This document shows positions 5,230-34,386 of a stretch of DNA of 52,066 nt, one piece after another (position 1 is the stretch's first letter; each line of letters begins with the position of its first letter). The notes below the pieces were generated by a model. The model did not search any database. It was given only the letters and a program-made list of their open reading frames with translations, and was not told where the DNA came from. The stretch comes from Candidatus Bathyarchaeota archaeon (GTDB lineage Archaea > Thermoproteota > Bathyarchaeia > 40CM-2-53-6), in assembly GCA_005888745.1 (NCBI GenBank), contig VBBS01000029.1, positions 1 through 52,066 of the forward strand. The letters are read 5' to 3'. A program made the translations under genes and the position numbers.

Positions 5230-6180
5230 TTAACATCCCTCAACCTTTTTCGATCGTCTTCGAAGCACAGTCATTATTCCACCGGCGGCTATGACCGCGC
5301 CGCCTCCTCCAATCGCAAGCCAAAATACGGATTGTGAAAAGATAGAGGGATTCGCGAGTGTCGGCGATTGAGGCTGGGGACCGGGGGCGGAGCTAATGGT
5401 TAGCGTCTGGATGGAAGAGCCGCAGGGAGTGCTGGTAGAACGGTTGTTCTGGTCTCCGGTGTACGACGCCTCCCACTGGTATCTTCCCGGGTCTTGAGTT
5501 ATGAAGGGCTCTGACTGATAATTGCCGTTCTTATTCACAGATAGTGTTGAGGTGAACAGGGGAGTACCGGTGCAGGAGCGGTCGAGAGAGAAGACGGAGA
5601 ACGTAATGGTCCCAGTTGGATCAAATCCTCCTAGTAGAGTTGCGATATCAAAGACAGACACTGCCGAGATTCCAATGGTAATCGCTCTAGGATAGACCGA
5701 CGCGGCGAGTTGTAGCTTGGCCTTATCGACATATACCGGAACGGTCGCCGTTGACATGTTAAGTCCATTAGTGACCGTGAAATTGAGTTCGTAGCCTCTT
5801 GGAACACGGCCGCTGCCCGGTGCCCAGTTCAGCGTGCCTGTAACGGGAAAGGTGCTGGTGACTGACGAGAATGTCGCGCCTAGTGACGCGCAATTAGCAC
5901 AATCCAGGACGAGCGTTTGAGATAGAGGATCACTATCTATAGCGGTTATGTTGAACTTGAGGGTTGAGGAGGCTGTCACAGTTTGGTTGCCCGGTATGAT
6001 CAAGATGGGTGGGTTCTTATGAGGCGGGCTATTCGCGGGATAGACCATTATCCGAATTGTTGCAGACGAACTCTTCTGGCCCTCGACAGTCCTAGGCTGG
6101 GAGTCCAGCTGAAGATGCCGGTAACCCTGCCTGTACTGCTGGTTGATGGGAATACAGCGCCTGCTGGGCAGATAGCGCAT
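5230..6180 (-). CDS. C-terminal part of a secreted GH5 protein: Ig/cadherin-like repeats and membrane anchor
   Basis: The frame encodes beta-rich repeats of cadherin/Ig type: NQTVTASSTLKFNITAIDSD near the start, then ELNFTVTNGLNMSTATVPV. A bacterial-Ig-like domain follows, with GTITFSVF and YQWEASYTGDQNN. A C-terminal transmembrane helix (VFWLAIGGGGAVIAAGGI) ends in the basic stop-transfer RRRSKK. Its first 40 or so codons overlap the preceding GH5 frame and do not look like a natural start. It is almost certainly the continuation of 6048-7544 after a frameshift near 6085-6105. The combined protein would be a cell-surface glycosidase of about 750 residues. Confidence 0.8.
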   Translation of the reverse strand: MRYLPSRRCIPINQQYRQGYRHLQLDSQPRTVEGQKSSSATIRIMVYPANSPPHKNPPILIIPGNQTVTASSTLKFNITAIDSDPLSQTLVLDCANCASLGATFSSVTSTFPVTGTLNWAPGSGRVPRGYELNFTVTNGLNMSTATVPVYVDKAKLQLAASVYPRAITIGISAVSVFDIATLLGGFDPTGTITFSVFSLDRSCTGTPLFTSTLSVNKNGNYQSEPFITQDPGRYQWEASYTGDQNNRSTSTPCGSSIQTLTISSAPGPQPQSPTLANPSIFSQSVFWLAIGGGGAVIAAGGIMTVLRRRSKKVEGC

Positions 6181-7544
6181 GATAATGTCAAGGTCTCTGG
6201 AGGCGTATCAGGATCGGAGGCGTTGACCTGGAATGATAGGATCGATCCTTCAATTGCGATGTTACCGGTAGGCGCGGTGAGACTTGGAGGATTATCATCG
6301 GCGACGGGCGGGTTTACAGGCTGGAACTTGAGGGAGCTTCCCCAGGTATCCAGGGCCCCGCAGCATGTTCCTTCGCCGGCCTCCCACCATAGCCATCCCA
6401 TGTTCTGGGAGTCCATCAGACTGGTAAGATACTGGATGAAATGTAGCGTGGTCTTCGAGTAGCTAGCATCATTCGTTCCAACTGCATCAGGGGGTATTTC
6501 GCAACCGCTCTTGCAGGTGTTGTAGATGGTTCCGCCTTCCGTGTCAAGTATATGCATGTGATAGGTGGCACTAGCAATTTGCATCGCCTGGTCGTAGATG
6601 TTCGCTACGCATTCGGCCGTAGTGTTGTTCCATGTACGGGTACTGCTTGGACTGCATATTCCGTAGCCTCCGCCCTGCCAGACATTGTAGAAGAGATATG
6701 GATGAACGGATAGGAGAGTCTGGTTTAGAGGGTCGGTGGTTTTCGGGTAGCAAGACGCCAGCGACGTGGGATCAAAAGAACAGTTTCCGCTGCTTAACGT
6801 GTTCTCGATCGCGATCCAGTGATTATCATGTAGACTTCTTGCCTGGGTGATCCATGCCTGGTATGCTGAGGATAGGAGGGAAACTGAGCCCACAGGCTCG
6901 TTTATCGGCTCCCAGATTATTCTGTCATAATTCCAGTTGGTCGAGAGGACCCCATTCCAGAAAGACAACCATGACGTTTGACAAGCGCTGTCAACTAGGT
7001 CCGAGTAGCCGTGGTAGTCTAGGACCACCCACGTGTTGTACTGCTGGGCCAATTGGACTGTTTCGTTGAACCAATCCATATTCCAGGGGCCTAGCTCTCC
7101 AGACGAGCATTTCGTGATCCCGGCGCCGAATCCTACCCTTACTCCGTTGTATCCTGACTGGTTGAGCATTAGCAAGGTGAGCTGCATCTGCCCGTTCGAA
7201 GCATCCTCTAGAGTGACGCCTCCCCATCCCTGGATCACCGGAACTTTGCCCTCAGCATTGCTAGAGATCGTCGCTATTGTCGAGGTTGGGGAAAGAGCCG
7301 AAAGGTCGTGCCTAGTAAGATCTGAATGTATACCATGGTTGACTGATGCAAATGGTAGTGGAAAATAAGGAAAGACGATCCCGCTAACTGCTAGGAAACA
7401 TAGCACGAACGCCCAATTCCTAGCGCTCAATAGAAGCAAGTCTAGTCCAGTCTCTAAGGGGCAGGGATCAACGAGTACCCATGACTTCCAGGCGTGCTTT
7501 TCGATATAACCAGCACGTCCAAGGAAGAGCACAATCCACCACAC
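6048..7544 (-). CDS. Secreted glycoside hydrolase family 5 (cellulase-like), frameshifted at 3' end
   Basis: The 498-residue frame has a hydrophobic export segment at about residues 43-62, then a GH5-type (beta/alpha)8 domain from about residue 95 to 400. The general acid/base is Glu216 in WEPINEP and the nucleophile is Glu336 in ILDTEGG. VVLDYHG and SVHPYLF are further conserved strands. The domain ends at WLWWEAGEG and is followed by the beginning of an Ig/cadherin-like repeat. That repeat breaks off after SWTPSLGL and continues in the frame of 5230-6180. Likely substrates are beta-glucans or mannans; specificity cannot be assigned. The true start may lie downstream of 7544, nearer the hydrophobic segment. 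Confidence 0.85.
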   Translation of the reverse strand: MWWIVLFLGRAGYIEKHAWKSWVLVDPCPLETGLDLLLLSARNWAFVLCFLAVSGIVFPYFPLPFASVNHGIHSDLTRHDLSALSPTSTIATISSNAEGKVPVIQGWGGVTLEDASNGQMQLTLLMLNQSGYNGVRVGFGAGITKCSSGELGPWNMDWFNETVQLAQQYNTWVVLDYHGYSDLVDSACQTSWLSFWNGVLSTNWNYDRIIWEPINEPVGSVSLLSSAYQAWITQARSLHDNHWIAIENTLSSGNCSFDPTSLASCYPKTTDPLNQTLLSVHPYLFYNVWQGGGYGICSPSSTRTWNNTTAECVANIYDQAMQIASATYHMHILDTEGGTIYNTCKSGCEIPPDAVGTNDASYSKTTLHFIQYLTSLMDSQNMGWLWWEAGEGTCCGALDTWGSSLKFQPVNPPVADDNPPSLTAPTGNIAIEGSILSFQVNASDPDTPPETLTLSCAICPAGAVFPSTSSTGRVTGIFSWTPSLGLSRARRVRLQQFG

Positions 7545-21294: not shown

Positions 21295-22536
21295 CTATGC
21301 AAACTTTCTTGAAGGTTCTGTTAACTCTTTGTTGGGTTGAGTTAGCTTCGGGGCATCGACTCCGGGGACTGCCGTAGGCGTCGGGTTCCCTTTCACTGCT
21401 TGAACTGCCCTGCCTTGCGCCTCGATTATGGGAGGTCGGGAACGTGCGAACCTCACCCGTCCCCGCCGAGCCAGGTTAACAGGTGCTACCATGTCCCGGT
21501 CCATTACTATTCGACAGCTACTGCACCAGAGCTTACGTTTTAGTCGTTTGTCCGATTGGAGTCTCTCCCCGCATCTCGGACAAGTCACACTGGAACCTCT
21601 GGTCTCACGCCTAGACAAACGAATTATTGGTAGGCCTACCCATCGGGCCTTGTACTCTATCTGCCGTTGAACTTCACCGAAGCTCCAGCTGTTCATTCTA
21701 CCCCGATACTCTCTGTTCTGACCGTTACCCCTACGGTAGAGACATCGTATGCCCTCGATGTTCTCAAGAACTATCGCTTCTCTCCGCTGGACTGCCACTG
21801 CAACTATCGTCTTTGTGGCGTTGTGGATTATGTGACCGGTTCTATCGGTTCTCCGCTGTCCATACCTGGATGCTAACCCTGTTCGTAGCCTAGCGTCGTC
21901 TCGTGTGAAAGAGGCGACGATACGCACCGTAGTCTTGGCTATTCTCACACACTTCGAAAGGTCATAGTAACTTGTCCCCTGGTCGTTTCCAACCGTGAGG
22001 TTGCGAAGATTACGGTCCACGCCTACCGTGGAGTTGCACTGTACTAGGGGAGCGTCCCTAGCGATGCAAAAGCCCAGTCTGTTCCGGGTGAGGGTGAAAG
22101 AGCGAACTTTGACTCCTGGTTGAGATATGACCTCTAAAACGTGTTTGGTCAGGGGTATCCTGAAACGTCTACCTCTCGACACGGGAATCCTCAGCCCTCC
22201 ACTTTCTAGCTTGAATCCGTAACAGGAGACGAGCTGCTGCCTGACAGCGTACGGAGTCTTAGTGGTGAAGCCTCTCCTAACAGACTTCTTTCTAGCCGCT
22301 AGTATTCCTGCGGCTCTGCTTATTGCGCAGAGCTTGTAGTAGCTAGGAGAATCGTACTGGGCGAGCTGGTTGTAGGTGAGGAGTGACAGCTTTCTCAGTG
22401 ACGATGCACTGTAGGCTATACCTATGCGTAATGAATCGTTGACCATCCGTCTGAACAAGTCCAGCAATCGCAAAACATCGCTTGATGGATCATAGTATTG
22501 CCAGACAGACTTGACAGCCAACACGATAAACGACAA
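21295..22536 (-). CDS. tnpB: TnpB RNA-guided nuclease-like protein, copy 2
   Basis: The 413-residue protein is very similar to copy 1 throughout. RuvC-I VGVDRNLRNL, RuvC-II AIVLENIEG, zinc ribbon CPRC...CSSC and RuvC-III MDRDMVAPVNL are intact. One extra base near the 3' end relative to copy 1 (GTTGGG against GTTGG) shifts the last codons. The frame therefore reads through the element terminus and ends ...LTEPSRKFA in flanking DNA. An N-terminal start a few codons later (LAVKSVWQYY) would match copy 1. Confidence 0.93.
   Translation of the reverse strand: MSFIVLAVKSVWQYYDPSSDVLRLLDLFRRMVNDSLRIGIAYSASSLRKLSLLTYNQLAQYDSPSYYKLCAISRAAGILAARKKSVRRGFTTKTPYAVRQQLVSCYGFKLESGGLRIPVSRGRRFRIPLTKHVLEVISQPGVKVRSFTLTRNRLGFCIARDAPLVQCNSTVGVDRNLRNLTVGNDQGTSYYDLSKCVRIAKTTVRIVASFTRDDARLRTGLASRYGQRRTDRTGHIIHNATKTIVAVAVQRREAIVLENIEGIRCLYRRGNGQNREYRGRMNSWSFGEVQRQIEYKARWVGLPIIRLSRRETRGSSVTCPRCGERLQSDKRLKRKLWCSSCRIVMDRDMVAPVNLARRGRVRFARSRPPIIEAQGRAVQAVKGNPTPTAVPGVDAPKLTQPNKELTEPSRKFA
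21314..21327 (+). repeat. Perfect terminal inverted repeat of TnpB element copy 2, left
   Basis: GGTTCTGTTAACTC, identical to 1431-1444 of copy 1. Confidence 0.75.
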
Positions 22537-25193: not shown

Positions 25194-25314
25194 TGGTCAA
25201 ACTAGAATAAGGGGTTTCAGTACCCTAACTAGATAGAGTCAACCAAGAGATTACCACAGCTAGCGTCAACTATCTGGAGTATTCTGGCGGACTGTTTCTG
25301 GATGATTGTGACGA

Positions 25315-25515
25315 TTATTGGCCCCGGCGGGTTCGCTTCGTGGGTTCTTCGAAAACTCGTTGATTAACTATACGTCTTTTACCTATCCACTCCTGTATAA
25401 CGCGTTCCTTGAGCAGGTCCTCGATGCTCGTTCTCTTTTTCCGGGCAATACTATCCAGTTGGTCGACTAAAGTGTCGCCAATCACTACTACTAACTTATG
25501 GGTCCGTGTGCCCAA
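25315..25515 (-). CDS. Small ribbon-helix-helix-like protein
   Basis: The 66-residue product has the strand-helix-helix pattern HKLVVVIGDTLVDQLDSIAR, then RTSIEDLLKERVIQEWI, and a very basic tail. It resembles the protein at 18403-18660 (helix LL-x-x-x-[IV]-I-x-[DE]-W). A DNA-binding regulator or antitoxin is inferred; no toxin gene adjoins it. Confidence 0.6.
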   Translation of the reverse strand: MGTRTHKLVVVIGDTLVDQLDSIARKKRTSIEDLLKERVIQEWIGKRRIVNQRVFEEPTKRTRRGQ

Positions 25516-25952
25516 TGACCACCCTGAGACTTACCTTAGATATCGTACCGCTTGAATTTAGATGCATGGTTTACAAAAAAACACATTTGGATATACGCCC
25601 TAGGGCGTGTGTGTTCGTAACCAAACTCTAGGTGATAGGTTCTTGCTTCTTGATCAAGATGCGATAAGTTGATGGTTTTTGTAATCTGCAAAATCCAACG
25701 CTATCCTAGTTTGATGTTCGCGGCGGGCCTCATACCAGATCACTGGCGTTAAGTCATGCACCAACTTATTCTCGTTCCCACTGCCTCTTGGCGAACATTA
25801 CCCGGATCTTTGTCCCCTATCTCCTTCTCATTTGCCGAACCCAGTTCAGCTCCAGGCGTTTACTTTTTTATTGGAACTTCTATACAATGCTATCCTTGTA
25901 GATAATTAGAGACGGCTAGATTCTTCTTATACTCGTGCGTTTTTGGTTTCCT
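25516..25952. other. Intergenic region upstream of the structured-RNA candidate
   Basis: No gene is seen in these 437 bases. The stretch is A/T-richer than its surroundings. TTCTTATACT at 25924-25933 is a plausible archaeal TATA box about 25 bases before the first helix at 25953. Confidence 0.35.
25924..25933 (+). promoter_or_regulatory. Candidate TATA box for the structured RNA
   Basis: TTCTTATACT lies 20-29 bases upstream of 25953, the expected TATA-to-start distance in archaea. It is based on sequence match only. Confidence 0.25.
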
Positions 25953-26419
25953 AGCGGGCCCTCCGGAGTCTTAACCTGATGACCACCCAAGAGACCTTAG
26001 GGTCCTCTTGGTTCGGGTTTTACCGGGGGGCCCGTTCCCAACTTGCAACAACCCATTTCCCCTGGCTGAACGAGCTGGAAAATCCTTGTCGCACCCTCGA
26101 TTCGAAAGAATCCTTTCGAGGAATCGAGAAGCGGCGGTGCAAAATTCCAGCGTTGAGACACTAGTTTGAGACACTAGTTAGAGCTGGGACAGTCTGAGAC
26201 TATCTGGGTCGTTGTTGGTCTACGACCTCAAAGGCATCCATTGACCACCCAGAAACCCTGGGGAAAAAGAACACCTTCCCATCGGAAGGCCGGATCAGAA
26301 ACGGGCGGGAAAATCGGTTTCACAGAGAAGGTGGACTCTTCATAACAGTAGAAGATTAGAGCGAAGAAAATTGTCCGCTCTACGCCGGACTCAGGACGAG
26401 ACGAACGACTCGACGTCTC
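25953..26419 (+). ncRNA. Candidate large structured non-coding RNA
   Basis: A gene-free interval holds a near-continuous series of local helices. Helix A pairs 25953-25966 with 26023-26036 (14 pairs, two or so G-U). Inside it lie 25973-25977/26015-26019 and 25987-25996/26001-26011. Further helices: 26056-26060/26077-26081; 26091-26095/26136-26140 enclosing 26096-26108/26113-26128; 26145-26151/26183-26189 enclosing 26160-26165/26173-26178; 26207-26212/26222-26227; 26274-26279/26284-26289; 26298-26302/26317-26321; 26373-26377/26386-26390; 26398-26403/26414-26419. T-rich bases follow. It does not match RNase P, SRP, rRNA or tRNA signatures I know. The strand is uncertain because helices read on both strands; plus is preferred from the TATA box and the downstream T runs. 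Confidence 0.45.
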
Positions 26420-26859
26420 CATGTTAATTTTGATCGATGGTGATTTTTGATATTAAGATTTGTGGTTCAATAATGCTTCAAAGTATGCTATGGATAGAGA
26501 TGGTCAGCCGGTGATACCTCTGGTAAGTTACGATTGGTTGTCTCATCGAGAATTTTTATATTACTTGTCGGCGTACCGGATGTTGGTCATCAGGTTGGAA
26601 ACGATAAATTGGAAACAATAGCATTGCAACTCAACGCTCTACGCGTCTACAATTCTCGAGTATCTATCCCCAGCTTCTTCCTGCGGCTGGGAGCACGCGC
26701 GTAACGCTATCATCCCACAACATCAAAACTGCGACTCGGACGATTCTGCTCTGCGCGATAATAATCGTCGGCTTCGGCTACACGGCTTCCCACCTATCTG
26801 ATACTGTTCACGCCACAACTATTTCCAATGCATCTATAGCCCCGGCGTTCAACTATGTC
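26420..26859. other. Leader region of the secreted phosphoesterase gene
   Basis: From about 26700 the frame of the next gene is already open and encodes a good signal peptide (RTILLCAIIIVGFGYTAS). No ATG, GTG or TTG is found in that frame back to the stop before it (near 26603). The true start is therefore unclear, or a frameshift lies near 26620-26700. Confidence 0.4.
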
Positions 26860-29040
26860 GTGGTCATTCTCATGGAGAACCATGGCATCAACGACATTAT
26901 CGGCGCCGCAACATTCATGACGACACTAGCTAATACCTACGGTTCCGCGAGCCAATACACCGCGGTAAGCCACCCCTCAGAACCGAACTATCTAGCACTT
27001 GTCGGCGGTGATACCTTCGGAATAAGCGGCGATGGCGTTTGCTGTTGGACTATTAACTCACCGAACATAGTCGACAGGATCGAGAACGCGGGACTGACCT
27101 GGCAAGCATGGGCTGAGGATGCCTCGGGCTCAGGAACTTGCAGTTTCAGCCCACCACGATCCGCCGATCACTTCGGCTTCCTCGAGTTCAGCGACATCAA
27201 CACTGCTTCTCGTTGTGCTAATTTCCACTCGACACAGTCATCATCTGATTCAGAGTTTGTCAACGCTCTCGATGGTAGCCCCTCGAACTTCATGTGGCTA
27301 ACTCCTAACGACTGCAACAACATGCACGACTGTCCCGTTACAACAGGAGATACCTACCTCGCTGGACTCGTACCCAAAATATTGACTAGCAACCTCTTCA
27401 CGACGCAAAAAGCCGCCCTTTTCGTCGTCTTCGACGAAGGCAGCAACAAATATCCCAACGACTACGTATACAGCGTTTGGGCAGGCTCATCCGTCAAGCA
27501 GGCCTACCAATCTAGCAGCCAATATAGTCACTACTCTTTCCTCCGAACAATTGAAACGAACTGGAACCTTCCGTCACTTACATCGAATGATGCCAACGCC
27601 CCGGCCATGACTGAATTCTTCAACACTCCAATGTCGAGTCCACTACAGGCAAGTTTTACCGAAACATCAACGTCCCCGAGTGTCGGCACCGCAGTTACTT
27701 TCATAGCCAGTTCCTCAGGAGGCATCTTCCCCTACACCTATTCATGGAACTATGGCGACAACAAGACAGGGGCAGGGATCTCAAGCACTCACACCTACAC
27801 ATCAGCAGGCACCGAAAGAGTAACTCTAAGGGTCCAAGACTCATCTTCGCCATCCCAAACTGCGACCAGCTCACAAATCGAGATCGTGTCTAATGGACCG
27901 CCCTCTCTTGGTGGAGACTTCGGAACATGCACGGTCCTCCCCCAAGGCTGGAACTGCGGCAATACCAAGGGATTGACAGGAAGTTCCGCCACCATCGTTA
28001 ACGGCGTGCTACAGACACGAGAATCTAACCCAAACGTTGGAAACGACACCAACTACTACTACTCAACAAGCCAAAAGGGGAGGTTCCCATGGTCATCCTG
28101 TCAAGGGCCCGTCAGCGGGATATTGCCCAGTAACATCACAACAGTAAGCACCACATTTACTCCACTTGTCTTTGCACCCTCAGGACATTACCGGTACCAC
28201 ATCTACGTCGCTCTGTATTACTGGCTGCCAAACGGTTTAGTTTCATCAGGCTCCACTTCGTACCGCTGTCTCGACACACAAGTCCGAGTTCAAAACATCA
28301 ACGGCGTATTCAGCCCAGTTGGCACGACGGCAACCTACGATCCCGGCGACTCGTTCGGCTGGGACAACGTCACTGTTGGTCAGATAACTATGGGACAAAC
28401 GTACACGCTTACTGCCAATGTTGACCACCAATGCCGAGCAGATCTCATCGCATGGGGTCTGGCCCCAAGTACGCCGTGCGAACTGGCCGGAATTGAGATC
28501 GGGACGGAAGGCTTCCAGTTCCTAGAACTCGACGTGAACTGGACCAGTGTGAGCCTGGCAACGACCGTCCAAAAACCAATCCTGACCGCCGCCATCAACG
28601 CAACACCCACGAATACGCCCGCTGGAAAGAAAGTGTCTTTCTCCGGCACTGCGAGCGGCGGGACCAGCCCGTACACGTACAGCTGGATCTTTGGTGACGG
28701 AGCAACTGCGATCGGCCCCACGCCAAGCAACACGTACTTGAAGGCTGGAAACTACACAATAACGCTCGTTGTCACAGACAGCTCAGCCCCGATCCAAACA
28801 TACATCGCCACTCAAGTCCGATATGTGGGCACGTCATGTGTCCCCACCACCTACGTCAGAGCTGATGCGAACTATGATGGACGGGTCGACAAGGCTGATC
28901 TCACCCTATTAGCGCAGGCTCTTCAATCCACGCCGTCATCGGCCAACTGGAGCCCTTCCGCCGATCTCAACCAGGACGGAATGGTAAACGTTAGCGATTT
29001 GGCTATCGTAGCGTTTGTGTTCGGCCAATCCATATGCTAG
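26860..29040 (+). CDS. Secreted phosphoesterase (acid phosphatase/phospholipase C-like) with PKD and dockerin-like modules
   Basis: The 726-residue frame begins at VVVILMENHG, the metal-binding start of the phosphoesterase family (PF04185-type). SHPSEPNYLALVGGDTFG and VFDEGSNKYPNDYVYSVWAG follow. A PKD domain lies at about residues 260-345 (FPYTYSWNYGDN), then a beta-rich domain to about 570, and a second PKD domain to about 655 (SPYTYSWIFGDG). The C-terminus carries two dockerin-type calcium loops (DANYDGRVDKADLTLLAQAL and DLNQDGMVNVSDLAIVAF). A signal peptide is encoded upstream of the annotated GTG. It probably releases phosphate outside the cell. Confidence 0.88.
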   Translation: MVILMENHGINDIIGAATFMTTLANTYGSASQYTAVSHPSEPNYLALVGGDTFGISGDGVCCWTINSPNIVDRIENAGLTWQAWAEDASGSGTCSFSPPRSADHFGFLEFSDINTASRCANFHSTQSSSDSEFVNALDGSPSNFMWLTPNDCNNMHDCPVTTGDTYLAGLVPKILTSNLFTTQKAALFVVFDEGSNKYPNDYVYSVWAGSSVKQAYQSSSQYSHYSFLRTIETNWNLPSLTSNDANAPAMTEFFNTPMSSPLQASFTETSTSPSVGTAVTFIASSSGGIFPYTYSWNYGDNKTGAGISSTHTYTSAGTERVTLRVQDSSSPSQTATSSQIEIVSNGPPSLGGDFGTCTVLPQGWNCGNTKGLTGSSATIVNGVLQTRESNPNVGNDTNYYYSTSQKGRFPWSSCQGPVSGILPSNITTVSTTFTPLVFAPSGHYRYHIYVALYYWLPNGLVSSGSTSYRCLDTQVRVQNINGVFSPVGTTATYDPGDSFGWDNVTVGQITMGQTYTLTANVDHQCRADLIAWGLAPSTPCELAGIEIGTEGFQFLELDVNWTSVSLATTVQKPILTAAINATPTNTPAGKKVSFSGTASGGTSPYTYSWIFGDGATAIGPTPSNTYLKAGNYTITLVVTDSSAPIQTYIATQVRYVGTSCVPTTYVRADANYDGRVDKADLTLLAQALQSTPSSANWSPSADLNQDGMVNVSDLAIVAFVFGQSIC

Positions 29041-29098: not shown

Positions 29099-30592
29099 TT
29101 AGACAATTTCCGTCAATGACAGTCGAGGGTACCCCCGCTCAAAACCGAATTTCACACCGTGAACGTTAGTAATCGGTTTGACTCCGTAGATGAGCAGTGA
29201 ACCGTTGATGGTCTGCATCTTCAAGTGGTAATCGACTGCTCTCAGAAGCTCCTCCCTCAAGCTGGTTGGTCGTGTTATTACACCAATGCTGAGTGCTCCT
29301 GAATCACGTATGCCAGCTCCAATTTCGGCGAGGCCGGGTAGCCCTAGAGTTTCCCCGTAAAGCTGTACTGTCTTATCGAAATCGTATTTCATCATCCTTG
29401 CGGATGAGATAGCTCCGAGCTCGTGCCATGCATTATTGAACGAGGCCAGATCTTCCGATAGCTTACCTGAAAGCTTCACTCGCCATTTTTCATCGGGAAG
29501 AGCCTGGTTGAACTCTGCGATGCGGACCCTCTCCCTCAGCACCTGGTCTCCGACATACACATTTAGGGACTCAGCCTCGTTTTGTGAGCTGAATATGCTG
29601 TAGGGAATGATGAAGGCGGTCCCTCCCTGATTGATGAAATTAGCTGCCATTATGTCGAGGAGAAGCTTCACTGAGTGTGGTGAGACGGTGCTATTCACAT
29701 CTAACAGAAGAGATGAGCCTTTCCTTACTCCGCCGTCCAACAACACGTCAAGGTCCGGGCTACCCGTAGAATAGGAGCCCTCTGTATTGCGCACAGGACT
29801 TAGCAGTTTTGGATCCAGGGATCCGTTCTGGCCAAAGTGGTATTCGACTCTGGGCAAAAGGGCGAATTTGCCCCCATCGAGCGAGAACAGCGCGCCTTGG
29901 GTGTGGAGCCTGAACCCGCGAAGCTTGTTGACAGTTACACCCCTAACCGTCCTATCTTCCAAGCGGGATAGAGATAGTGTGACGATGCCATCTACGAGAT
30001 AGTCGAGTTTAGGAGAATTTTCGCTTTCGCTCACAATTACCGCGCTTAGCTTGCTCTCTTCCAAGTCCTGAAAAATCGCAGTTTCCATCTCATTACGTCG
30101 TTCCTCCGTCGCGTTCGCTACTGCACCTTCCCAACTGTCGACAACTATGATGCCTTTCTGTTTGGCCCTTTTCAATGCAAGAATTCTGCTGACAATATTC
30201 GCCGCTCCTGCTATTCGGCCATCCCCGCCCAGCCGCGTCCCACTGCTTGTTGCCTCTTTTCCGGACATAGAATCTAGCACCTCATGAACTCCGGGGAAAT
30301 GTCGGTGGAGTTTCGAGGACGAGACCCGGCTTGACACGTATACCTTGTTGGCAGAAATTGTGTGAGGACCGATGCGAGTTCCTTTCGCCTTGTTGAGAAG
30401 TTCAAGGGCGAGGGTTGTTTTCCCGGTGCCTGGGGCGCCTTGTATGAGTAGCACGTTTCCTGGCGATTCTAGGAATCTTGACATAAGGTCCAGAAGGTCG
30501 CCAGGCTTAGCCTTCCCAACACTCGCTTGTTCCATCTCAATCTGGGGTTCTAGAACCGTTTCTTCCTCGCCGGAGTCGTCTTCAGCCATCAT
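29099..30592 (-). CDS. KaiC/RAD55-like P-loop ATPase (GvpD-like)
   Basis: The 497-residue protein has Walker A GAPGTGKTT at residues 52-60 and Walker B GIIVVDSWEG at about 147-156. A second RecA-like half follows (GSPDLDVLLDGGVRKGSSLL) in which the P-loop is degenerate. The N-terminal 30 residues are acidic and probably disordered. Tandem RecA folds with one dead P-loop resemble archaeal GvpD-like and KaiC-like regulators. No gas-vesicle genes are nearby. A regulatory or signalling ATPase is inferred. Confidence 0.8.
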   Translation of the reverse strand: MMAEDDSGEEETVLEPQIEMEQASVGKAKPGDLLDLMSRFLESPGNVLLIQGAPGTGKTTLALELLNKAKGTRIGPHTISANKVYVSSRVSSSKLHRHFPGVHEVLDSMSGKEATSSGTRLGGDGRIAGAANIVSRILALKRAKQKGIIVVDSWEGAVANATEERRNEMETAIFQDLEESKLSAVIVSESENSPKLDYLVDGIVTLSLSRLEDRTVRGVTVNKLRGFRLHTQGALFSLDGGKFALLPRVEYHFGQNGSLDPKLLSPVRNTEGSYSTGSPDLDVLLDGGVRKGSSLLLDVNSTVSPHSVKLLLDIMAANFINQGGTAFIIPYSIFSSQNEAESLNVYVGDQVLRERVRIAEFNQALPDEKWRVKLSGKLSEDLASFNNAWHELGAISSARMMKYDFDKTVQLYGETLGLPGLAEIGAGIRDSGALSIGVITRPTSLREELLRAVDYHLKMQTINGSLLIYGVKPITNVHGVKFGFERGYPRLSLTEIV

Positions 30593-32697: not shown

Positions 32698-34386
32698 CTA
32701 TGTGACTGTAACCGTGAAGGTGATAGAGTGGGAAAGCGATCCATTCGTCCCCGTCACGGTAATTGTATAAGTTCCTACCTGAGTCTTGTTGAAGACCCTC
32801 ACGTTCAGAGTCGAGCTCCCTGAAGCTCCGGGTGTTAGGTTGACTGGATTCAGGCTGAATGACGTCCTAGGTCCGGAAGACGATACTGAAGCCGATAGGC
32901 TTACCGTGCCGCTAAACCCATTCACACTTGTGAGAACTATGCTGAATGTACCGGTCGAGCGTTGTGGGATGGTCATAGACGAGGGGCTACCAGAGATAGA
33001 AAAGTCGGAGGTACTCCCAACCGTAACTTGGACCGTCGTCGAGTGGGAAATGGCGTTACTCGTTCCGGAAACTGTTACTGTGTAACTTCCGATTGGCGTG
33101 GTAGGTTGTGTTGTAACGGTCAAGGACGAGGTTCCACTGCTGCCAGCTGTAAGGGTCACGCTAGTAGGGTTCACGGTGACGGTTGGGCCGCTCGGTGAAA
33201 CGGATGGAGATAGGGTGATTGTCCCGGCGAAACCTCCTAGGCTGGATAGTGTGATTGTCGAAGAGCTGGAAGAGCCTTGTGCAAGGGAGAGTGACGAGGG
33301 ACTGGATGAGATACTAAAGTCTGGAGAAGCTGGTTGGGTCACAGAGACACTCTTAGATGTGGTGGTCGTGCTGCTCGCGGAATCTTGAACAGTTAGTTGT
33401 GCGTTGAAGGTCCCGGAAGTGGAGTAGGAGTGAGTTGTGGGGTTACCCGTGCCGGTTGCTCCGTCACCGAAGTTCCAGTTGAATGTATATGGAGAGGTTC
33501 CTCCTGAGACGGCTGCGGTGAACGTGACCGCTTGGCCTACACTAGGGGAGGATGGATTGAAATTGAAGCTAGCGGCCAAGGAGGGGTTTGACTGGTGGAC
33601 GCGCCAGCCCGTCAGCGGGTGAATTTCCCAGCCGCTGAAACTGTGCCATGCCTGGTTGAGATTGCCCGGGTCCCAGTAGATGAAGCCCTGGAAGTCTATC
33701 AGAGAGGAAGTTGTAGTTTGAGAATTCAACGCCGCGTCGTCACATGTGGTGGATGCTCCACAGTACTTGGCTGCCTTCCAGTCATGATCTATCTCCGAGT
33801 GAATTCTACCGTAACAAGTAGGATCTGAGGTGCTAGTGCAGGAGGTTGAATAGTTCGGGAGAACCGCGGGATCGTAGAAGTTGAATGTTGAGTCGCAGTA
33901 TGATCCGCCGTTGGAACCTCCGCCGTTCACCGCATCGTAGGTCCCTGTGCAGTCCTCGTTAACAAGACTCGCTCGTTTTACCCCATCGATCTCAACGAAC
34001 AATGCAACCGTTCCATGGGAGTTAGTTATCGTGCAAGCCGGGCCGGGAGAAATCCAGCCTGGTGGGGTGTTGCCTGGACTGAGCCATCGCTTGGCAGTTC
34101 CTACGGGCGACGTAATTCCAGGATTGAAGATGCTGTTGCTCAGAGAGGAAGACCCGGTCATATTGTCGGTTATGTCGGTCACTCTGACGATCCATGGTGA
34201 AGAACAGGACACATTCGGATTCCAAGAACCCGATCCTACGGGGAACAGGGAGACATTTGCACCCGCGCTGCTCGGAGCGTTAGCGGATACCAGGGTCGAT
34301 AAGAAAAACATGCTGGCGAGAAGAATTATCACAATTCTTGTCTTCCGGTTCTTGGCTATCATTCTTTGATACCAACCACTAGGCAT
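32698..34386 (-). CDS. Large secreted protein: conserved N-terminal domain, PKD domain and two Ig-like repeats
   Basis: The 562-residue protein has a signal sequence at about residues 14-35. Its N-terminal domain of about 210 residues is shared with 10285-11949 (GSWNPNVSC, HSEIDHDWKAA, DFQGFIYWDPG, AWHSFSGWEIHPLTGWR). A PKD domain follows (SPYTFNWNFGDGATG, about residues 270-355), then two Ig-like repeats opening PDFSISSSPSS and SDFSISGSPSS. No C-terminal anchor is visible. A surface or secreted binding protein is inferred. Confidence 0.87.
   Translation of the reverse strand: MPSGWYQRMIAKNRKTRIVIILLASMFFLSTLVSANAPSSAGANVSLFPVGSGSWNPNVSCSSPWIVRVTDITDNMTGSSSLSNSIFNPGITSPVGTAKRWLSPGNTPPGWISPGPACTITNSHGTVALFVEIDGVKRASLVNEDCTGTYDAVNGGGSNGGSYCDSTFNFYDPAVLPNYSTSCTSTSDPTCYGRIHSEIDHDWKAAKYCGASTTCDDAALNSQTTTSSLIDFQGFIYWDPGNLNQAWHSFSGWEIHPLTGWRVHQSNPSLAASFNFNPSSPSVGQAVTFTAAVSGGTSPYTFNWNFGDGATGTGNPTTHSYSTSGTFNAQLTVQDSASSTTTTSKSVSVTQPASPDFSISSSPSSLSLAQGSSSSSTITLSSLGGFAGTITLSPSVSPSGPTVTVNPTSVTLTAGSSGTSSLTVTTQPTTPIGSYTVTVSGTSNAISHSTTVQVTVGSTSDFSISGSPSSMTIPQRSTGTFSIVLTSVNGFSGTVSLSASVSSSGPRTSFSLNPVNLTPGASGSSTLNVRVFNKTQVGTYTITVTGTNGSLSHSITFTVTVT

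Follow-up and report, generated by a model that had tools for sequence, protein, structure and literature searches.

The window, by which we mean the whole stretch of 52,066 nucleotides of archaeal DNA that was analyzed, encodes on its plus strand a phosphoesterase (Pfam: PF04185) that also carries PKD and dockerin domains and for which a non-AUG start was inferred (26704–29040). Upstream of this gene lie, in order, a hairpin RNA (25950–26038, plus strand), a foldable middle stretch (26040–26222), and a small conserved reading frame of 64 amino acids on the minus strand (26228–26422), which is convergent with the hairpin. Elsewhere in the window, Pfam domains were assigned to a GH5 cellulase (6048–7544), a GvpD/KaiC-like ATPase (29099–30592), and a PKD-domain protein (32698–34386), all on the minus strand, as is a TnpB-like frame with a Cas12f1-like TNB domain (21295–22536; E 1.1e-13). 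The latter frame ends at 21295, 4.7 kb off, which rules out an omega-RNA of TnpB. A search with the 4227 families of Rfam 15 produced no match at the gathering score in the whole window and none at E ≤ 10 in 25300–26900, ARAGORN predicted no tRNA or tmRNA in the window, and the archaeal RNase P and SRP RNAs of the host genome were located on contigs C38 and C33, away from the locus. These searches agree with the initial annotation, in which no RNase P, SRP, or tRNA signature had been recognized at the locus, and they match it to no known Rfam family.

The initial annotation had described the region as a dense chain of hairpins forming a single orphan structured RNA of ~470 nt. When the 491-nt stretch was folded against dinucleotide shuffles, both strands exceeded the controls (z −3.16 on the plus strand and −2.75 on the minus strand, 0 of 100 shuffles each), and the overall fold therefore stands, but the signal is uneven, with 26223–26430 at a z of only −0.31. 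The 14-pair stem was recovered exactly where it had been placed (25953–25966/26023–26036), and the two further stems inside it are present in the fold. The strongest signal comes from this first part: 25950–26039 reaches a z of −5.15 on the plus strand versus −1.67 on the minus strand. There, the 14-pair outer stem is followed by the helix AACCUGA/UCGGGUU (25973–25979/26013–26019), a 7-nt bulge with the sequence UGACCAC (25980–25986), and an inner stem that begins at 25987.

Homologs of the hairpin were collected at increasing taxonomic depth. At the DNA level, 13 of the 21 family genomes searched, the window's own among them, contain a match. A first covariance model (R1, from 15 hairpins), searched against 38 genomes of the order, retrieved 17 strong copies in 13 genomes, plus weak reverse-strand echoes of some of these, and a diverged copy in genome G004 (contig C67, 20933–21022; locus L068) scored 35.7 bits with the same model. 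A second model (R2), which includes the diverged copy, recovered the same 18 copies from 256 genomes of the class, a search whose filters are stricter, so that weak matches could be lost. Hence, the hairpin is represented by 18 copies, that of the window included, in 13 of the 256 genomes of the class, all of a single family. The main hairpin pattern had no match among viral contigs; the second seed pattern matched one (L223), inside a reading frame and without a proper outer stem, which we regard as chance. The first hairpin pattern had no match in a wider collection of genome contigs, in which the second pattern returned 37 stretches, 14 of them on contigs already known and 23 bacterial ones taken as chance given the length of the pattern.

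The alignment of the 18 copies (17 distinct) exhibits standard pairs in 94.9% of pair cells and changes on both sides at 13 of 23 pairs (37 cells), and neither value was reached in any of 500 shuffles; the alignment was fitted to the covariance model and is biased in the model's favor. When one strand of the hairpin was slid by one to three columns, pairing fell to 22–62%. When 15 copies were aligned with MAFFT, RNAalifold predicted 22 pairs, of which 8 have changes on both sides. The compensatory changes anticipated in relatives are thus present, and they are unevenly distributed: the outer stem varies widely, the variation of the inner stem comes from the diverged copy only, and the helix beside the bulge (five pairs) is invariant in the main group. 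All 18 copies fold on the plus strand with z ≤ −3.0; the plus strand is the better one by z in 17 (L021 being the exception) and by raw energy in 14, and a hairpin RNA on the reverse strand, less stable by z in those 17 copies, was rejected.

A TATA-like box, TTATAC, lies at 25927–25932, 48 nt before the CCUGA of the hairpin. This box, pointed out in the initial annotation, occurs in all six long-type loci, and more widely a TTATA or TTATT box is found 46–53 nt upstream of CCUGA in 17 of the 18 hairpins, L068 being the one that lacks it. The position of the box therefore places the predicted 5′ end of the RNA close to the base of the outer stem. At the other end, where T-rich bases had been noted after the element, inspection of the copies' 3′ flanks by eye revealed no conserved terminator. 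Four short-type loci (L007, L008, L009, and L010) share a common AATCCAGCGATATC upstream of the TATA-like box, ~65–82 nt before CCUGA. Taken together, the fold, its compensatory changes, the placement of the promoter box, and the lack of an Rfam match indicate that the first ~90 nt is a conserved plus-strand RNA structure and a candidate non-coding transcript; to this extent the orphan structured RNA was correctly recognized, and the remainder resolves into a foldable stretch that is unconserved on the plus strand and the convergent small reading frame.

The middle stretch (26040–26222) folds with a z of −3.35 on the plus strand here, but with −0.01 to 1.36 on that strand in five relatives. 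Its minus strand gave −4.35 here and −1.97 to −2.41 in three of the five relatives, and a minus-strand structure is possible. The unstructured part beyond it (26223–26430) contains the small frame, which makes up the last 195 nt of the reported stretch and begins METSS.SSRPES.V.RTIFFALI... in its conserved portion; the earlier statement that no protein frame is credible consequently fails on the minus strand. This frame (64 codons here, 60–67 amino acids in relatives) is kept in six of six long-type loci, with an ATG start in five and a TTG start in one. The variable columns of its first 23 codons are distributed 8/2/14 by codon position; of the nucleotide differences, 82 belong to synonymous codon pairs and 85 to non-synonymous ones, and the loci diverge past ~25 codons. 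Its own TATA-like box, CTTAATAT (26450–26459, minus strand), is conserved in the six aligned long-type loci. About 70 bases upstream of this promoter (GATATTAAGAYTTGTGGT ... GGTCAGCCGGTGATACC, within 26450–26530) also look conserved in long-type loci and are possibly an operator.

Two readings of the hairpin as part of something larger can be weighed on these data. A single structured RNA of ~470 nt would account for the z of the whole stretch and of its middle, yet the middle is unstructured on the plus strand in the five relatives, the 3′ part has neither structure nor, in 11 of the 17 copies compared, any sequence match, and it is occupied by a minus-strand frame; only the first ~90 nt is conserved as plus-strand RNA, which largely refutes this reading and makes it very improbable. 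Alternatively, the hairpin could terminate, or form the 3′ end of, a minus-strand transcript that carries the small frame, downstream of which it lies in the six long-type loci, with a minus-strand z of −1.97 to −4.35 in the intervening stretch in four of the six. The better folding of the plus strand in the large majority of copies, a promoter box that points to the plus strand, and the lack of a matching small frame beside the same 11 copies stand against it, and we give it hardly any credence.

The main point of the analysis, absent from the initial annotation, is that the hairpin contains a segment complementary to the predicted beginning of the downstream mRNA. The seed UUAACCUGAUGACCA (25971–25985, plus strand) can form 15 contiguous pairs, two of them G-U, with the target site UGGUCAUCAGGUUGG (26584–26598, plus strand), where the phosphoesterase mRNA is predicted to begin, with a duplex energy of −24.3 kcal/mol; within these, the hairpin segment AACCUGAUGACC (25973–25984) is the exact reverse complement of GGTCATCAGGTT (26585–26596). 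The target site lies 0.55 kb downstream of the hairpin, ~25 nt past the TATA-like box of the phosphoesterase gene (TTATA, 26556–26560, plus strand) and more than 110 nt before the inferred start codon. The exact core 12-mer occurs three times in the genome, namely, in the hairpin, in the target site, and at one site without a TATA-spaced setting, and with up to one mismatch there are 20 matches versus 10 for the reversed control; the short word alone therefore proves little, and its setting does more.

A site in the same place was found in 14 target genes, and the 14 hairpin–target cases, which cover all 13 hairpin genomes, exhibit contiguous duplexes of 13–17 pairs, with energies of −24.3 to −28.0 kcal/mol in 13 cases and −27.2 kcal/mol in the 14th. 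A-to-G changes in the targets of G001 and G010 retain a G-U pair. Scanning the 38 genomes with the pattern TTAWWN{20,25}TTGGTNNTCRGG returned a site in 12 of the 13 hairpin genomes, in none of the eight family genomes that lack the hairpin, and in 1 of the 17 others (G027), and the reversed control gave three matches in the same 38 genomes. The G027 site (GA in the seed), in a genome with no hairpin match, is taken as chance. In G005, the remaining hairpin genome, CGGTCATCAGGTTG follows GTTATAAC in the same setting, ahead of a phosphoesterase gene that is on a different contig from the hairpin. Seven of the eight hairpin-less family genomes carry phosphoesterase paralogs yet no TATA-spaced site; nine one-mismatch sites were seen in these eight genomes, and the eight sites with a locus lack, by eye, a correctly spaced TATA-like box. 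A one-mismatch site in a genome of another family (G033, L168) follows an AT-rich stretch. The genomes compared are draft assemblies.

As to layout, hairpin and target are divergent neighbors in 10 of the 14 pairs and tandem in 2, one pair is 8 kb apart, and one has its members on different contigs. Because they are neighbors in 12 of the 14, co-occurrence would be expected from co-inheritance alone. A riboswitch or cis leader was ruled out, given that the hairpin is mostly unlinked or on the opposite strand, with only the two tandem cases otherwise. In the window's genome the TATA-spaced pattern returned the phosphoesterase site only, and no further target was accepted there after the contexts of the 12-mer had been read by eye. 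Four genomes (G006, G011, G012, and G013) possess a second long-type hairpin, for which the stretch fetched contained no target site. These sequences show the long, evolutionarily conserved complementarity to a target mRNA that is one mark of a base-pairing regulatory sRNA.

The diverged hairpin of G004 provides a second specificity. It reads AAGCCUGA-GUACCA where the main group has AACCUGA-UGACCA, giving the seed AAGCCUGAGUACCA, and a corresponding second site, UUGGUACUCAGGC, is present 23 nt after a TTATA box and precedes an integrase frame. This arrangement, TTATA-N23-TTGGTACTCAGGC before a frame with a phage-integrase domain (E 3.9e-8), is on the same contig, 8 kb from the hairpin. The two RNA–target pairs of G004 reach −26.8 and −27.1 kcal/mol when each RNA is matched with its own target, versus −16.5 and −13.4 kcal/mol when swapped, and a TATA-spaced scan allowing any two letters at the changed positions found exactly these two sites in the genome, which is rated 52% complete. 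A word search for the second seed with up to one mismatch gave four matches, the hairpin itself included, versus nine for the reversed control, so the integrase site is set apart only by its TATA-spaced setting and leader. The co-changed seed and site are strong evidence, and the strongest we have, for a predicted antisense pairing, albeit one instance: the helix that presents the seed is invariant in the main group, and the seed–target covariation therefore comes from this single diverged copy. Between the hairpin and the integrase frame of this stretch (L176, G004:C67:19500–29182) lie ~8 kb of small frames, among them one for a MarR/HTH-type protein; the arrangement resembles an integrated mobile element that is truncated where the contig ends.

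Thirteen of the 14 targets, that of G005 included, encode PF04185-type phosphoesterases and one encodes the integrase. These phosphoesterases are numerous, with 3–11 matches each in 20 of the 21 family genomes, and the family appears expanded in relatives, as seen in G000, whose 2.2-Mb genome contains eight matches to the window's phosphoesterase (contigs C35, C46, C36, C33, C25, C64, C38, and C23). The linked copies in G001, G009, G010, and G016 have 34–39% identity to that of the window versus 48–58% for other copies in the same genomes, and the control module therefore seems to have been retained while the protein differs.

A second anomaly concerns the starts of these genes. The window's target gene has no in-frame ATG, GTG, or TTG upstream to the preceding stop, nor in its first 45 codons; its inferred start is an ACG (26704–26706) overlapping an other-frame stop (26702–26704) in the motif UAACG (26702–26706), behind a Shine-Dalgarno-like GGGAG (26689–26693) that is predicted to be mostly paired (unpaired fraction 0.25). 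Across the 14 targets the inferred start is CUG in 12 and ACG in 2; in the 13 targets first measured it lies 10–11 nt after a GGAG, which is part of GGGAG in the leaders except in G004 and G010, where UGGAG is found. The start overlaps an other-frame stop in 13 of 13 targets (CUGA in 11, UAACG in 2), and an overlap is likewise present in G005. In 12 of the 13, no ATG, GTG, or TTG falls in frame ahead of the inferred start, counting from the in-frame stop upstream (G016 has one TTG), and in 8 of the 13 that stop is at most 9 nt before the start. The G005 target has no canonical start upstream and a stop 6 nt before, two N breaking the frame further on. Many of these target sequences are closely related, so that independent events are fewer, estimated at about six. 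As a control, a single rule was applied to linked and unlinked genes, counting any in-frame canonical start codon that lies past the preceding stop and at least 30 codons ahead of the catalytic motif, a substitute motif being used for G001. Among the unlinked paralogs, 27 were looked at and 24 were resolvable, and all 24 contain a canonical start codon; 6 of the 12 linked phosphoesterases do so, 5 of them only downstream of the CUG and one through the upstream TTG.

On this basis, we consider it probable that the hairpin acts as an antisense sRNA on the 5′ end of the mRNA, whichever the sign of its effect, with repression the somewhat favored effect. A non-coding RNA of ~90 nt would be transcribed from ~25950 on the plus strand and form one long hairpin, in which the seed would be presented by the 7-nt bulge together with the 5′ side of the adjoining helix; the seed would then base-pair with the 5′ terminus of the target mRNA, here that of the phosphoesterase. 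Production of the RNA and its pairing in the cell we infer from these sequences. Translation of the target may depend on ribosomes that enter from the mRNA 5′ end after translating another frame, because the CUG or ACG start sits behind a mostly paired GGAG (unpaired fraction 0–0.28 in 13 of 14 predicted leaders) and overlaps the stop of another frame; by covering the mRNA 5′ end, the RNA would keep such ribosomes out. That the upstream frame is translated first remains putative: the overlapping frame shares the frame of a 5′ UUG in only 8 of 13 leaders, and it is nearly absent from the G004 phosphoesterase leader, being open for 11 codons only and without a start. Translation from the 5′ UUG was accordingly dropped as a general rule. 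The codon-position counts of the upstream frame are 9/3/7, from four closely related sequences only. A more speculative extension, which we hold tentatively, is a retargetable module in which a hairpin with an exchangeable seed controls ribosome entry at the 5′ end and the main protein would be made solely by termination–reinitiation at the CUG or ACG, with two such circuits in G004, one on the phosphoesterase and one on the integrase of a probably mobile element.

The opposite sign has also to be considered, namely, that the RNA protects or activates its target, the duplex shielding the mRNA 5′ end from decay or opening the leader. Stabilization of some mRNAs is reported for the archaeal sRNA154 (PMC5867862), and in the predicted folds of the leaders of G011, G012, and G013, although not in that of the related G006, the free 5′ end pairs with sequence near the start codon. 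When the target site was blocked in silico in the 14 folded leaders, however, the GGAG was freed in none, and the start codon became clearly more open in two and less open in five; a cis refolding that would free the GGAG on RNA binding was rejected on these grounds, and protection or activation is to us a possible but doubtful reading. Further from an antisense role, TGGTCATCAGGTT could be a transcription-factor site present at the gene start and, in the opposite sense, within the hairpin, the complementarity being a by-product. Both copies do adjoin promoters, hairpin and gene are mostly divergent neighbors, and a second factor could account for the second G004 sequence. Such a pair of DNA operators would nevertheless leave unexplained why a paired, strand-biased, and covarying hairpin surrounds one copy, why that copy is placed across the bulge and the adjoining helix, and why changes in the target retain G-U pairs, so that we judge it unlikely. 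Antisense pairing at the mRNA 5′ end is the reading that we retain.

The target, the region that pairs with it, the promoter, and a naturally occurring compensatory pair are all legible in the sequence, so that the proposal could be tested in a laboratory archaeon with no need to grow the host itself. The CUG and ACG starts that overlap a stop are of practical consequence too, as gene finders restricted to ATG, GTG, and TTG would misplace them, which the open-reading-frame lists used here did. A literature search on small or non-coding RNAs of Bathyarchaeota or Bathyarchaeia, judged by titles and opening abstract text and with most subscription journals outside its coverage, found nothing of this kind, and one on archaeal start codons of CUG, non-AUG, or near-cognate type had nothing similar among the matches listed.

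Locus-linked antisense RNAs of bacteria, such as IstR/tisB, are encoded beside their targets, which are small toxic peptides, and pair upstream in a long leader. The hairpin resembles them in being a small RNA beside its target that would pair upstream in a long leader, whereas its targets are phosphoesterases and an integrase, in archaea. Research on the mechanisms of archaeal sRNAs is described as still in its infancy in one review (PMC5867862). As reported, sRNA162 of Methanosarcina mazei pairs with a cis-encoded mRNA 5′ untranslated region and with a trans mRNA, and its trans interaction masks a ribosome binding site via a single-stranded linker (PMC3510493). Pairing of an archaeal sRNA with an mRNA 5′ region would be common to both systems; unlike in sRNA162, the complementarity here lies in a bulge and helix within a single hairpin and is directed at the very 5′ terminus of the mRNA, a comparison made by description only. 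According to the same review, sRNA154 of M. mazei is, like the hairpin, a conserved, structured, intergenic archaeal sRNA that reaches its targets by loops, but it has several targets in nitrogen metabolism, stabilized or masked at the ribosome binding site (PMC5867862), whereas one target was found here per RNA, mostly next door. Termination–reinitiation at overlapping genes has been reported for archaea, with ATGA or TGATG named as the overlaps (PMC6728339); stop and start codons overlap here as well, although as CUGA or UAACG with non-AUG starts and behind a short, putative upstream frame. Archaea are already known to have sRNAs that pair with mRNAs in cis and in trans, and on its sequence features the candidate hairpin RNA belongs to that working class.
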